Positions 3,468 to 36,400 of a DNA stretch of 64,000 nucleotides are shown here, piece by piece. The position numbers were made by a program, and so were the translations under genes. Origin of the DNA: Salminus brasiliensis. Its lineage: Eukaryota > Chordata > Actinopteri > Characiformes > Bryconidae. The stretch covers positions 8,252,959 through 8,316,958 of the forward strand of contig NC_132901.1 of NCBI RefSeq assembly GCF_030463535.1. The letters run 5' to 3'. The notes under the pieces are model-generated. The model saw only the letters and a program-made list of their open reading frames with translations, was not told the DNA's origin and made no database searches. Position 1 is the stretch's first letter, and every line of letters begins with the position of its first letter.

Positions 3468-4091
3468 ATGGCAGAAGTCGCTCCAGCCCCAGCCGCCTCG
3501 GCGCCCGCCAAGGCCCCCAAGAAGAAGGCCGCCGCCCGCCCCAAGAAAGCCGGCCCCAGCGTGGGCGAGCTCATCGTCAAGGCCGTCTCGGCTTCCAAGG
3601 AGAGGAGCGGCGTGTCTCTCGCCGCCCTGAAGAAAGCCCTGGCTGCCGGCGGCTACGACGTCGAGAAGAACAACTCACGCGTTAAGCTCGCCGTCAAGAG
3701 CCTCGTCACCAAGGGCACTCTGGTGCAGACCAAAGGCACCGGCGCGTCGGGCTCTTTCAAGCTTAACAAGAAGCAGACCGAGGCAAAGAAGAAGCCGGCC
3801 GCCAAGAAACCGGCACCTAAAGCTAAGAAGCCGGCCGCCAAGAAACCAGCCGCGGCCAAGAAGCCCAAGAAGGTAGCAGCCAAGAAACCCACTGCGGCTA
3901 AGAAATCCCCCAAGAAGGCCAAGAAGCCCGTCGCGGCCGCTAAGAAGGCAGCGAAGAGCCCCAAGAAGGCCAAGAAGCCGGCGGCTCCCAAAAAGGCGAC
4001 CAAGAGCCCAAAGAAAGCCAAAACGGTCAAGCCTAAAGCAGCTAAGCCCAAGGCGGCGAAGGCGAAAAAGGCTGCCCCTAAGAAGAAGTAA
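3468..4091 (+). CDS. Linker histone H1, cassette I
   Basis: A 207-residue linker histone that binds nucleosomal dyad and linker DNA and compacts chromatin. It has the three-part H1 layout: an Ala/Pro/Lys N-tail (1-28), the winged-helix globular domain (about 29-103, with [20 protein letters not shown] and GSFKL), and a Lys/Ala/Pro C-tail rich in KKPAAKKP units. Three SPKK sites (Ser147, Ser164, Ser180) are the type phosphorylated by cyclin-dependent kinases. The start ATG follows a promoter with AC box and TATA-like element, and a histone stem-loop follows the stop by 44 bases. Intronless, with strong G/C third-position use unlike the flanks. This is the first intact gene in the array; its cassette has no H4 or H2B upstream. 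Confidence 0.97.
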
Positions 4092-6069: not shown

Positions 6070-6085
6070 GGCTCTTTTAAGAGCC
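6070..6085 (+). terminator. Histone mRNA 3' stem-loop, H3 of cassette I
   Basis: GGCTCTTTTAAGAGCC followed by ACCTA. A GAAACAGCAAA element lies about 17 bases downstream. Confidence 0.95.
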
Positions 6086-14438: not shown

Positions 14439-14935
<497 letters not shown>

Positions 14936-18301: not shown

Positions 18302-18317
18302 GGCTCTTTTAAGAGCC
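18302..18317 (+). terminator. Histone mRNA 3' stem-loop, H1 of cassette II
   Basis: Stem and loop unchanged. The first flanking base after the stem is C instead of A (18318). Confidence 0.93.
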
Positions 18318-18678
18318 CCCCACAGTTTCATAAAAAAACAGCTTTTTTTCCCCCCTTGTTACTGCATAATGAATTGATTGTTAAAAAAAAAAAAAAAAAA
18401 CACAACACAAAAATAGCTCTCATTAGTTTCCCCACACAATAATTATATATGATCAATATATATATATATTTTTGGTTTGGTCATACGTGTTACATTTGAG
18501 CGGGAAAGGGAAAGAAAACGCGGGGCACGAGTGGGGGTAAATGTTTCTTTCTTTAACCCGTTTTCTTTCTTCCTTTCTCTCTCTCGCTCACACAGACACA
18601 CAGCACGAGAGGAGGAGGGGGTCGGGTAGGAAAGCGAGCAGAGGTGGGAGGACGCTAGAGTCTGACGGCGGAAATGCG
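18318..18678. other. H1-H2A intergenic stretch, cassette II
   Basis: Same layout as 4151-4514, with a slightly different A-tract and a shorter (AT)n run. Confidence 0.7.
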
Positions 18679-19644: not shown

Positions 19645-20232
<588 letters not shown>

Positions 20233-20245
20233 TGAAATACCCAAC

Positions 20246-29339: not shown

Positions 29340-31154
29340 CATTTAATTGGTATAGTATACTAAGATTCAGGGACAGAGCAGCAAACTAAAATACTGTGCC
29401 ATACTAACTGTATGGCGTGGGGTTGTAATGCTAAGTGGGATAAATGAAGCTGCACATCACCTGTGAAAGACCAGTCCAGAGGAGATCAGCCTTACAGGTG
29501 GGGAATAGTGAGGCAGGAAACCATACTAGGGTTGACTTGAAGCCTAGAACTATACACTTGATCTTTGTAATGAAAGCTGTCTAGTATATATAACCAGGCA
29601 TACGGTTAGGAAAGAGAGGAAATAAGTATCTCCACAAGCTTTTTTTGTTGGGTCACAGAAGGGTGAAGTTATTCAAAGCCTTAGGTTTATGGTGAGATTT
29701 GAGTGAGCAAGAATAGGTTCAGAGCTAGACTTTTGATGTAGAGGGTCGGAGCAAGGCAAAAGGACGAGGGTAGAGTAAGTAAAATAGTATGGCGGTCAAA
29801 GGCCTCAGTTTTATGATGAAGGTGGATTGAGTTAAAGTGACCGTGAGCTTAGGCCTTTGCCTTAGGATACAAAGGAAGGTTCAGTAAAAGTGAATTTCAG
29901 CATTAGCCATCAGCCTGATGATTTGGATACACATGGCCTCGGCCTACTGAGGAATGCACATCTAAGTAGAATGGTCATGACTGCATGGAATGGGTTAAAT
30001 GAAAGTAAAAGTTTAAAAATAATAATTTGGTGTGTTGCTTATTGAGATAGAGGGAGGGATGGGGTTAATTTGTTTTAGTACAAGAATGAAATTGGAGTTG
30101 TTTCATGTGAGAGGTTCGAATGAGGATGGGGAGTGATTTTGTATAATGGTTGGAGGAAGGATGGTGTTATTTCATTTTAGGGTTGGAGAGAGAAGGTCGT
30201 GGGGTTTGTATTAGAGTATGAATGAAAATGGGTTATTTTATTTTGGGATTAGACGGCGGATGGGGTTATTTGGTTTCATGGTTAGAATGATGTTAAGGTT
30301 ATGTTGTACTAGGTTAAGAGGGAGGACAGAGTTATTTTGTATTAGGACTATTTGGTTTGGTTCACTAAAAGATGAATTTGGTTGAAGCCTTAGGTTAATG
30401 GTGAGATTCGAGCGAGCAAGAATAGGTTCAGAGCTAGACTTTTGATGTAGAGGGTCGGAGCAAGGCAAAAGGACGAGGGTAGAGTAAGTAAAATAGTATG
30501 GCGGTCAAAGGCCTCAGTTTTATGATGAAGGTGGATTGAGTTAAAGTGACGGTGAGTTTAAGCCTTTGCTTTAGGATACAAAGGAAGGTTCAGTAAAAGT
30601 AAGTTTCAACATTAGCCATCAGCCTGATGATTTGGATACACATGGCCTCGGCCTACTGAGGAATGCACATCTAAGTAGAATGGTCATGACTGCATGGAAT
30701 GGGTTAAATGAAAGTAAAAGTTTAAAAATAATAATTTGGTGTGTTGCTTATTGAGATAGAGGGAGGGATGGGGTTAATTTGTTTTAGTACAAGAATGAGA
30801 TTTGAGTTGTTTCATGTGAGGGGTTCGAATGAGGATGGAGTGATTTTGTATAATGGTTGGAGGAAGGATGGGGTTATTTTATTTAGGGTTGGAGAGAGAA
30901 AATGGTTATTTTCTATTAGGGTTAAAATGAAAAATGGGGTTTTAGGGTTTAAATGAGCTTGGGTTTATTTTGTATTGGGGTTAGAGTGAAGGTGCAGTTA
31001 TTTTGTATTAGGCTTGAAAAAGGGCATGATAGTTTTATGTTATGTTTAGAATAAGTTTTGTCTTTTTTTTTTTGTTATTTTGTTTTTTGTGTTTTAGGGT
31101 TGGGGGGGTGTATGCAGTTATTTTGTGTTAGGGTTAGTATGAGATTTTTGGCTA
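29340..31154. repeat. H2B-H1 higher-order repeat block of cassette III, two copies
   Basis: Landmarks at 29711 and 30420 (spacing 709). Shares the second-unit variants GGTCGTGGGG and GGGATTAGACGG with cassette I rather than with the neighbouring cassette II. Confidence 0.85.
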
Positions 31155-31633
31155 TGGTATATTGGGTGTGTTACGAGTGCGTATTAGGGGACCTATGGAG
31201 AGCCGTTCCGAGTGTGGAAGCGCCGGTGACAAAGACGCATCGACGGTGGAAGTCATACTGCGCACACACGGCAACACTGTGCTTTACACACTCCTCAAGG
31301 TCGCCTTGCACGACGAGCAAAACAACGCACCCACATCTCGGATGCCCAGCACGCTCTCGACGAGGCTCTCCTCCAACGCACCGGATAACACTCGCCCAGT
31401 TCGTGGCACCTTTTGTCGCCGTTTTCCACCGATTAGCACGCCAAATGCGCCGCCGCCCGTTCGGCACGCCGGTAGCGTGGCACGCTTCGGTGAGCGCCGT
31501 ATTAAACGCGGCGTCGTTACGCTGCCCTTCCCGTCTTCTCAACACACGGTGGAGCCTCTCGGAGACGAAAGAGCATTTCTACGCTCGCCAAGTTGAGCTT
31601 TCACCCATATTTCGCTCGACAAACGCCGAGAGA
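31155..31633. other. CpG-rich H1 upstream block, cassette III
   Basis: One base differs from the consensus of the copies (CACATCTC for CACGTCTC near 31336). Confidence 0.6.
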
Positions 31634-31718
31634 AAACACAAGTGCGAGACTGTCGCTGCCACACGGCTGTGCGGCATCGAGCGAGTTGAGTCTACAACGT
31701 TCTCATGTGGCTTTTAAG
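31634..31718 (+). promoter_or_regulatory. H1 promoter, cassette III (drives the fusion)
   Basis: AAACACA at 31634-31640 and TTTTAAG at 31712-31718 are intact upstream of the H1-H2A fusion. Confidence 0.7.
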
Positions 31719-31801
31719 GGCCGGCCCCCTCGCTGCAGCGGGAGGTTCTACAGAACGCTGCAGCAGATTGTGCTCACTCGCGCTCACAGCAAAGCAGAAC
31801 A

Positions 31802-32350
31802 ATGGCAGAAGTCGCTCCAGCCCCAGCCGCCTCGGCGCCCGCCAAGGCCCCCAAGAAGAAGGCCGCCGCCCGCCCCAAGAAAGCCGGCCCCAGCGTGGGC
31901 GAGCTCATCGTCAAGGCCGTCTCGGCTTCCAAGGAGAGGAGCGGCGTGTCTCTCGCCGCCCTGAAGAAAGCCCTGGCTGCCGGCGGCTACGACGTCGAGA
32001 AGAACAACTCACGCGTTAAGCTCGCCGTCAAGAGCCTCGTCACCAAGGGCACTCTGGTGCAGACCAAAGGCACCGGCGCGTCGGGCTCTTTCAAGCTTAA
32101 CAAGAAGCAGACCGAGGCAAAGAAGAAGCCGGCCGCCAAGAAACCGGCACCTAAAGCTAAGAAGCCGGCCGCCAAGAAACCAGCCGCGGCCAAGAAGCCC
32201 AAGAAGGTAGCAGCCAAGAAACCCACTGCGGCTAAGAAATCCCCCAAGAAGGCCAAGAAGCCCGTCGCGGCCGCTAAGAAGGCAGCGAAGGTGGTGTGCT
32301 GCCCAACATTCAGGCTGTACTGCTGCCTAAGAAGACCGAGAAGACTGTGA
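31802..32350 (+). pseudogene. H1-H2A deletion fusion, 182-residue open frame
   Basis: Residues 1-163 are H1: complete N-tail, whole winged-helix domain and the first part of the Lys/Ala/Pro C-tail, with SPKK at Ser147 only (Ser164 and Ser180 are lost). At 32288-32290 (AAG, shared by both parents) the sequence passes into the last part of H2A but out of frame, adding 19 residues with four Cys, and stops at 32348-32350. The H2A-frame stop lies at 32359-32361. Compared with cassette I, 998 bases are missing: the H1 end and stem-loop, the H2A promoter and most of H2A. It keeps an H1 promoter and the H2A stem-loop, so it could make a mature histone mRNA for a short H1. Cassette III thus has no intact H1 or H2A. 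Confidence 0.93.
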
Positions 32351-32395
32351 AGACAAAGTAAATTGGCGCTCTCCGTTGATTTATCTATACACAAA

Positions 32396-32411
32396 GGCTC
32401 TTTTAAGAGCC
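32396..32411 (+). terminator. Histone mRNA 3' stem-loop, from H2A, behind the fusion
   Basis: Unchanged H2A-type element 45 bases after the fusion stop, followed by the H2A-type downstream purines. Confidence 0.95.
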
Positions 32412-32622
32412 ACCCATTTTTTCTAAGAAAAGTGCTGCTCCTTTACAAACAACACTACATATTCTTCACGTGATTTCCAACTGCATAAAAAAATAATAGC
32501 TTTATGAACCGAGTTATTATATAAACACACTGCCATGCAATACACAATTGCCCTTTTTCATATATTTCACGTACTGAGATCAACACCCTATGCATATGTG
32601 CATGTATACACACATTCTCTCG

Positions 32623-32820: not shown

Positions 32821-33390
<570 letters not shown>

Positions 33391-33441: not shown

Positions 33442-36400
33442 ACCTACCCGTGTCCGCGCCGAAACAGCAAATGTCCGCCTCACCTCGGTGTTGCGTTTAT
33501 ATAATGTAAGGCTATTATGACGCGCGCGCGCTTCTAAGTTCCATAGGGCTGCGCGAGCAAAACCAGCCGTAAGACAGTGGTTGTAAAGTTTAGCAAAAAA
33601 AACAACAACTAATATATATGTGTATATATATATTATAACGTTTTGTACAACATTTCACATCAAAATCGCCATATTTAACATGTGTTTTAATACATATTAA
33701 TACGTTTCTTTAAATACCTATCAATATGATTATACATATTTAATAGTTTGGAAACAGTTCATTCACCCCAGCAAAAAGTTGAAGCCACTGCTACTTCAGT
33801 AGAACACTACACTTTACACTATGTAGTGTTTAGGCCGGTTTTGGCCTATTACAAACGGCATTTGACATGGATGGAGCGTGGATCCCACCGCGTGGTGAAA
33901 CTATACAACTGCAAGCACAGTTTCAGAGAGCAATGTATGTGTATATTTATATAATGAGAGCTTGATTTTGGGTACCTACGTTTCATACATATGCAAAATG
34001 AGTTTGATTCCATAGAGAGTAAGCGAGACCAGCTGTGGGGCCGCAGTAAAGGAGTTGTTGTGGGAACGCAGACATATGTCATGGATGGAGCGTGGATGCC
34101 ATCGTGTGGTCAAACTAGGCAAATGCAAACGTTAACTACGTAGATTTATTCGTGTATGTGTGTGAATGTAACAGCTTTTTTCATTTGATAGATGGTTGTG
34201 AACTCCAGTACGTCTACTAAATCATTTGTATTGCGGTGTTATTTTGGTTAGTGTTTTTTAAAGTACATTTTAAAAAATGTTTCTATTGAAGCATACTTCA
34301 GTTCAGGGCATTTTAGTAGCCAGCATGGTTACCAGTTCTCATGCTGCCAGGCAATGAAATGGAAACTTAATTTAGGGTAATTTTATACACATTAAATATG
34401 ATTGTTAACTGCACCAACAAATCTAAAAAGTAATTACGTGTCTTACGTGATGATTTTCGTTTGGGCTTGGGTTTCATTTCAACAATATGCTAACGATAAC
34501 ATACTCCAGACTGTATAATCTCCTTCCACAACTAGATAAAATGTCTTGTTTTGAAGAACGCTTGATAGAAGTCTTTAAAAAAAGGCACTTTATTAGCCAT
34601 CATGACAACCAAACAGCATGCAGTTATGTAAAAAGCCACCAATTTACTCACTGCTAGAAGCCATTGAGACAAACTATAGAGTAGTGCACTTCTATGTAGG
34701 ACCTTTATTTCCTTTTCTTTAGAGCCCTTAAACTCTGTGTATTAGCTTATATTGAGGTTACCATAATAATCATAAATCAGTAAAAAACACCGCTCATCTG
34801 CTATCAAGACCTGACCGAGGAGCTGGAGGCCAGTGGAGCAAAGCTAAAATATGGAAAAGCATACGCACCCTCAAATTGGTGCAAAAAAAAATAAATAATA
34901 ATTTTAATCATTCAAGGCATAGGTAAGTAACAAATGAATACAAAAGTGCTAACAAAAGTGAATGAAAAGCCAGCCGTACTCACTTGTGAATTCGCTTTTT
35001 TGATTTTGCTTCTTTAAACGTCTCTGTGGACCAAAAAAAAAAGATTAATTGTTTTACATTTTAACCACACGATGGCATCCACGCTCCATTTACGTACTAT
35101 GACCACAGACTTAAAGCTTAGCCCTGAAACTCCATCAGAAGCCTAAAAGACTTGACTAGAGAAGTGCACTTCTGTGTAGTGTATACAGTGTAAGGGATTT
35201 AGGAAGTGCCCTATTGCAAACGTCACCGTTGTTTTGGTATCGTGGATATATGTCATGGATGGAGCGTGGATGCCATCGTGTGGTCAAACTCGCAAATGCA
35301 AACGCTAAAAACATAGATGTATACGTGTATGTGTGTGAATGTTACAGCTTTTACATATGACAGATGGTTGTGAACTCCAGTAAGTCTACTAAGATCTACC
35401 AAGGAACATTTGGGCATTTTAGTAGCCAGCATGACAACCAGTTGTCATGCTACCAGGCAATGAAAACTTAATTTAGGGCACTGCAATTTTTATACACATT
35501 AAATATGATTGTTAACTGCACCAATACATCTAAAAAGTCATTACATGTCTTGCGGGATGATTTTTGTTTGGGTTTTAACAATATGCTAATGATAAAGTAG
35601 GACAGAAATTTTTTTTACTCCAGACTGTATTACCTCCTTCCACAACTCGATCAAATGGCTTTAGATAAAGAATCCTTGATAGAAGCATTCTTTATTTAAG
35701 GCACTTTTTTATCAGTTAGGTAAAAAGCCAACAATTCGCTCACTACTATAAGCCATTGAGACAAACTGTAGAGTAGTGCAATTCTATGAATGACGTTTTT
35801 CCCCTCCCCCTTTAGAGCCCTTAAATTCTATGCTGTATGGTTATGTGTATGTATGTATGCATCAGCTTATATTGAGGTTAACATAATAATCATAAATCAA
35901 TAAAGAACACCGCTCATCTGCTATCAAGACCTGACTAAGGAGCTAGAGGCCAGTGGAGCAAAGCTACAATTACGAAAAGCATACGCACCATCGGTGCAAA
36001 AAAATCATTTTAACCTGCCAGGTTTAGGTCAGAGACTTTCTTCAAGGCATAGGTAAGTAACAAATGAATACAAAAGTGCTAACAAAAGTGTATCAAAAGC
36101 CAGCCGTACTCACTTGTGAATTAGCTTTTTTGTGCTTCTCAAATTGAACTCTTTCTCTTCTTTCTGATTTTGCTTCTTTAAATGTCTCTGTGGACCAAGA
36201 AAAAAAAAACTAAAAAAAAAGATGAATTGTTTTATATTTTGCAGATTTACATTTTGACCACCAGATGGCATCCACGCTCCATTCACGTACTACGACAACA
36301 GACTTAAAGCTTAGCCCTGAAACTCCATCAGAAGCCTAAGGGGTAGGTCTAGCCAAACTGCTTCCCCTCACCCTGACTTCATCATGAGCTCTACACTTAC

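Follow-up and report, generated by a model that had tools for sequence, protein, structure and literature searches.

A deletion of about 1 kb has fused an H1 gene out of frame to the tail of H2A in one unit of the tandem histone array that fills the window, by which we mean the whole stretch of 64,000 nucleotides of Salminus brasiliensis DNA that was analysed. The result is a single open reading frame set between an H1 5' flank and an H2A stem-loop. We consider it likely that this gene arose through a single joint in a redundant array and that it persists as a near-neutral variant without a selected job, transcribed in S phase and giving rise to an H1 that is either weaker than its intact counterparts or cleared. 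As a lesion, the fusion is of an ordinary kind for an array and is not surprising, although its expression signals are unusually complete. The features on which this account is built are collected in Table 1.

Table 1. Features of the fused H1-H2A gene and its flanks, in window positions.
Feature	Position	Strand	Remarks
H1 5' flank (promoter region and leader)	31402..31801	+	400 bases; differences to the four other H1 genes 1, 1, 1 and 0
AAACACA motif	31634-31640	+	offset -168 in 5/5 H1 genes
TTTAAG motif	31713-31718	+	offset -89 in 5/5 H1 genes
Fusion open reading frame, 182 aa	31802..32350	+	H1 residues 1-163 plus 19-residue tail; TGA stop at 32348-32350
Linker-histone globular domain, residues 30-100, unchanged	31889..32101	+	PF00538, 81.5 bits in the fusion and in cassette I H1 alike
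Deletion joint, shared AAG (3-base microhomology)	32288..32290	+	slide of exactly three bases
H2A remnant (final 23 codons plus TAA), in a different frame from the fusion	32288..32361	+	no substitutions relative to cassette II across the downstream BLAST match; frame translations
Neo-tail, 19 residues	32291..32347	+	H2A read in another frame
H2A histone stem-loop GGCTCTTTTAAGAGCC	32396..32411	+	within Rfam RF00032 (Histone3) match 32391-32436
Purine-rich stretch AAGAAAAGTGCTG, histone-downstream-element-like	32425..32437	+	same in cassette I H2A

Array context of the fused gene

Genes throughout the array follow the order H4-H2B-H1-H2A-H3, all on the + strand, in units of about 14 kb; we take this order to be that of trout and salmon. 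The array looks vertebrate, and its histone sequences and gene order suggest a bony fish. H1 start codons lie at window positions 3468, 17635, 31802, 45643 and 63407, and the cassettes are numbered I-V, the last being cut by the end of the window. Over aligned columns, cassettes II, III and IV are mutually 99.5-99.7% identical and cassette I is 98.9-99.0% identical to these; across all ten cassette pairs, six are at least 99% identical and the others 98.6-98.9%, values that come from a whole-unit alignment which is rough within the variable H2B-H1 spacer.

The fusion belongs to cassette III and accounts for one of the five H1 genes of the window, the other four being free of the lesion. Among these four, the H1 of cassette V is judged only up to the window end, which it reaches 105 bases beyond the position of the joint while remaining identical to cassette I throughout. 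Intact H2A genes are present in cassettes I, II and IV. In the four complete cassettes, a standard full-length gene is missing at 3 of 20 gene places, namely H1 and H2A of cassette III and H3 of cassette II, and internal stops are found in none of the 20 gene frames. Besides the fusion, the sole shifted frame is the H3 of cassette II (19804-20235), where a 4-base deletion with two shared bases has led to the loss of H3 sequence after residue 80 and to a predicted product of 143 residues; H3 is intact in the window's other three H3 genes. This frameshifted H3 shows that broken copies are tolerated in the array.

Structure of the deletion joint

Counted from the ATG, the H1 of cassette III matches those of cassettes I and II at 489 of 489 bases, with one mismatch to cassette IV, after which the BLAST match passes to H2A. 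The joint is clean, and the sequence on either side of it matches the other units as closely as is usual within the array. The deletion in cassette III amounts to 998 bases when measured against cassette I, 995 against II and 994 against IV. A sequence-only reading of the window had described a 998-base deletion relative to cassette I that joins H1 codon 163 out of frame to H2A at three shared bases; our alignment returned the same length, the base-by-base matches and frame translations placed the join at the same codon and in the same relation of frames, and the overlapping AAG was located where the two sides meet. In terms of cassette I, H1 has lost codons 164-207, its stop and the 3' end that carries its stem-loop; H2A has lost its promoter and 105 codons; and the spacer between the two genes is missing as well. 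Searches with Rfam recovered stem-loops after the H1 genes of cassettes I, II and IV and at the H2A 3' ends of cassettes I, II, III and IV, while in cassette III the scan returned no H1 stem-loop ahead of that of H2A.

At least three shared bases occur in 1.7-2.0% of random breakpoint pairs (distinct products; three choices of region). The AAG microhomology is somewhat above chance, mildly so and in a single event, and as such it is compatible with end joining or slippage. Cassette III has a further private deletion, of 29 bases and again with three shared bases, at 34054, about 1.8 kb downstream of the joint; together with the 4-base H3 deletion of cassette II and its two shared bases, this deletion indicates that similar mutations occur in the array. 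The attribution of the joint to microhomology repair thus stood in part: the AAG is there, and the repair route is possible but unproven, a joint formed between cassettes being an alternative.

Expression signals

The fused gene retains both ends of a histone transcription unit, as had been proposed from the letters alone. Over the 400 bases upstream of the start codon it shows 0-1 differences to each other H1 gene, and the start-codon context is identical across all five. Two motifs at fixed offsets in this flank are AAACACA, which we take to be H1-box-like, and TTTAAG, which is presumably TATA-like; CCAAT, ATTGG and TATA strings are absent from the 400 bases upstream of any of the five H1 genes. 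At the other end, the H2A processing signal gives an RF00032 match of 42.9 bits, equal to the score of the three intact H2A genes, and its stem-loop lies 45 bases past the fusion stop, as compared with 43 bases in H1 and 34 in H2A of cassette I. The purine-rich stretch that follows presumably plays the role of a histone downstream element.

An intronless histone unit with a short 3' end should be transcribed and processed normally, and it should not be an obvious target of nonsense-mediated decay. Since both ends of the transcription unit are intact and the distance from stop to stem-loop is normal, expression of the fusion is plausible, and on these sequence features the gene is probably transcribed. 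Its stem-loop near the stop and its uninterrupted, single-exon open frame of 549 bases behind a histone promoter region are those of a putative replication-dependent histone gene. With regard to pseudogene status, the H2A gene is lost and the tail of H1 has changed; the open frame and both signals remain.

Properties of the predicted protein

Residues 1-163 of the fusion are identical to those of cassette I H1, and the best PDB sequence match is a Histone H1.4 chain (E 3.2e-41). Much of what the sequence-only reading had said of the protein was recovered here: the globular domain is intact, scoring as it does in cassette I H1; two of the three SPKK motifs are lost (those at 164 and 180, with the one at 147 retained); and translation of the open frame yields a new tail of 19 residues with four Cys. 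All four Cys of the fusion lie in this neo-tail, compared with none in cassette I H1. The C-tail counted from residue 102 is 81 residues long with a net charge of +30, as against 106 residues and +45 in cassette I H1, the neo-tail itself contributing a net charge of +5. With its Cys and shortened tail, the fusion falls outside the description of a linker histone H1 as having, like H1 of cassette I, a long Lys-rich C-tail, SPKK motifs and no Cys; with 8 Arg against 43 Lys among its 182 residues, it also lacks the arginine-rich composition of a protamine or protamine-like protein.

The neo-tail has an Arg-containing end, RRPRR, and two Cys pairs. The hypothesis that this tail is special was not supported by simulated joins between the cassette I H1 C-tail and H2A, of which 7,380 out of 123,264 (6.0%) share the last eight residues, CLRRPRRL, and 11,870 (9.6%) have at least four Cys. 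Zero substitutions over the 549 bases of the open frame have a probability of about 0.18 at the divergence between cassettes II and III; the identity is therefore no sign of constraint, the divergence being too small to give the test power.

In hydrophobicity the new end departs markedly from the old, with a GRAVY of 0.26 for the neo-tail versus -1.51 for the lost H1 tail, and the peak hydrophobic 13-residue stretch of the fusion begins at residue 164. Elevated hydrophobicity of the C-terminal tail induces proteasomal degradation (Kesner and colleagues, as cited in passages of PMC12863090), and degradation of the fusion protein through its hydrophobic C-terminus is possible. Such an outcome is not assured, since over the last 30 residues the hydrophobicity of the fusion (GRAVY 0.03) is about that of intact H2A (-0.01), the value for intact H1 being -1.49.

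Origin of the joint and fate of the product

In the account that we consider likely, end joining or replication slippage at the 3-base AAG would have removed about 1 kb and left behind a histone transcription unit, the observed structure of which consists of an H1 5' flank, an open frame and an H2A stem-loop. The fusion would be transcribed in S phase and processed as an ordinary histone mRNA, and the protein made from it would combine a normal globular domain with a C-tail charge of +30 rather than +45. Such a protein would bind chromatin more weakly than H1, in the manner of the frameshifted H1.4 of Rahman syndrome, or else be cleared because of its hydrophobic, Cys-rich end. Being only one of several or many copies, the fusion would be tolerated and near-neutral, such tolerance being explained by the redundancy of array copies, and turnover of the array would in time lose it or spread it.

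A plain deletion within one unit does not predict a switch of variants around the joint, and the presence of such a switch counts against this account. At sites dividing cassettes I-IV two against two, cassette III goes with I at six of eight between 2.15 kb before the H1 ATG and the joint (the six lie between 30090 and 31767; of the remaining two, farther to the left, one sides with IV and the other with II). To the right of the joint, as far as 8.9 kb beyond H3, it goes with I at none of nine sites, siding with II at four and with IV at five. The partner of cassette III changes between 31767 and 32932, an interval that contains, and so brackets, the joint. This mosaic pattern is suggestive, though not decisive, of a joint that linked the I-like H1 of one cassette or sister chromatid to the II- or IV-like H2A of another, either through unequal joining based on microhomology or through template switching, and perhaps at the cost of whole units; for the Drosophila array, unequal sister chromatid exchange has been proposed (passages of PMC12400953). 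We regard this route as a real possibility that falls short of probable, given that partners also change elsewhere without any deletion (II and IV alternate to the right, and IV, II and I succeed one another to the left), so that the switch near 32288 may be unrelated to the joint. Moreover, five of the six sites on the left fall within or close to the subrepeated spacer, a region that aligns less reliably, and the sole informative site within 1 kb of the ATG is that at 31767. A between-unit origin is in any case compatible with a near-neutral lesion of a redundant array, and this conclusion does not depend on the route. An artefact is a further reading: template switching during library preparation uses short homology, and a chimera would likewise yield a variant switch around the joint. 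Near-identical units assemble with difficulty, and for the Drosophila histone array, passages of PMC12400953 describe assemblies that were collapsed and broken; an intact cassette III could in principle have been concealed by a read that was chimeric or bore a deletion, or by the mis-joining of a repeat copy. We think this unlikely. Cassette III has SNPs of its own, five over the 8.9 kb that follow H3 (compared with ten in IV, eight in I and seven in II) and another at 31335, and its CA repeat is the longest among the four complete cassettes; together with its private 29-base deletion, these features argue that cassette III was resolved as a unit of its own and is no simple blend of its neighbours. 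The lack of internal stops in the 20 gene frames, with only the H3 of cassette II shifted besides the fusion, also speaks against an artefact. Indirect evidence from the sequence thus favours a real unit.

A further reading is that the fused gene has been kept as a functional short H1, valued for a Cys- and Arg-containing tail in, for example, germ cells. The open frame, the two signals, the RRPRR end and the two Cys pairs would suit such a role, the arginine clusters of protamines may contain cysteine, and H1-related protamine-like proteins have been described in the sperm of some vertebrates (passages of PMC12216123 and PMC4584325, respectively). We nevertheless judge this to be very improbable, because the tail appears to be a by-product of reading frame whose last eight residues recur among the simulated joins, because Lys so far outnumbers Arg that the protein is not arginine-rich, because the fusion is present in only one of the five H1 genes, and because the identity of its open frame is uninformative on constraint. 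A selected function of the fusion has no support. Still more improbable in our estimation is that a new linker-histone variant was made in one step, in which the signals of two neighbours would have been combined with a disulfide-capable tail of Cys pairs and Arg as a possible first move from H1 towards a protamine-like protein.

Comparison with known systems

If made, the protein encoded by the fusion would, by analogy, most resemble the frameshifted H1.4 of Rahman syndrome. In the H1.4 (HIST1H1E) alleles of that syndrome, as here, the globular domain is intact, the frame is lost within the Lys-rich C-tail, and the tail is shorter with its positive charge reduced (passages of PMC13385758 and PMC6947958). 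Frameshifted H1.4 is described as stable, nuclear, chromatin-binding and more mobile; it has a weaker compacting effect on arrays and, when mixed with wild-type H1, disturbs the latter, and the Rahman-type tails share 38 acid-enriched residues (passages of PMC13385758). This last feature is lacking in the fusion, which otherwise shows the loss of frame in the C-tail, the retained globular domain and the reduced charge. The analogy is thus partial: Rahman alleles are small indels in one H1 gene, whereas here a 998-base deletion runs into H2A within a multi-copy array, and a tail of 38 acid-enriched residues stands against one of 19 residues, positively charged and with four Cys. Because the tail of the fusion is basic and those of the Rahman proteins are enriched in acidic residues, a milder effect than that of the Rahman proteins is likely.

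A likeness to protamines lies in the change of frame, by which Lys codons of the AAG type become AGA codons for Arg, and in the presence of Cys, as in some protamines; a frameshift argument has reportedly been made in the protamine literature. The fusion differs from them in its short tail, in its 8 Arg versus 43 Lys and in being a gene of the replication-dependent type. A parallel at the level of the array is the Drosophila histone cluster, where unique deletions, insertions or SNPs in individual units are treated as landmarks (passages of PMC12400953). In both systems a single unit of a homogeneous array is marked by a private deletion; the two differ in that units here are of about 14 kb and in that no H1-H2A fusion unit appears in those passages. 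Among the titles and abstract openings listed by our searches of open-licence papers we recognised no description of an H1-H2A fusion gene, which is a weak negative, and the same listings showed no paper on a fish H4-H2B-H1-H2A-H3 repeat.

If real, the fusion offers a clean example of a tandem histone array making a fused gene with the signals at both ends intact, and it would constitute a multi-copy natural counterpart to the human C-tail frameshifts of H1.4. Its joint would also provide a unit-specific landmark for tracking turnover of the array. Views of histone biology are left unchanged unless the product proves to be expressed and kept.

Further variation among the cassettes

Differences between units are also found at other genes and spacers of the array. 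Residue 74 of H2B is Val in cassette I (14561-14935) and Gly in the other three. In cassette III coordinates, H1 has a private SNP at 31850 in cassette V and one at 31955 in cassette IV. In the H1 of cassette II (18302-18322), the base right after the stem-loop is C and not A (CCCCA versus ACCCA), and this stem-loop has an Rfam score of 38.5 bits, compared with 44 for the H1 genes of cassettes I and IV. Over 14 bases of the H2A-H3 spacer upstream of H3 (equivalent to 32835-32848 in cassette III), cassette IV alone shows seven substitutions and has lost five bases, a cluster which looks like one complex mutation. An identical 16-base stem-loop follows all four H3 genes, at 6070, 20246, 33426 and 48242, with none of the four reaching the gathering score in the Rfam scan. 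The H2B-H1 spacers (29639-30647 and those of the other cassettes) contain direct subrepeats about 709 bases apart, the number of which seems to differ between cassettes. The spacing from H3 to the next H1 is 11,601 bases from cassette I to II, 11,589 from II to III, 12,253 from III to IV and 15,201 from IV to V, and the longer III-IV and IV-V spacers are probably due to the number of subrepeats in the H2B-H1 spacer.
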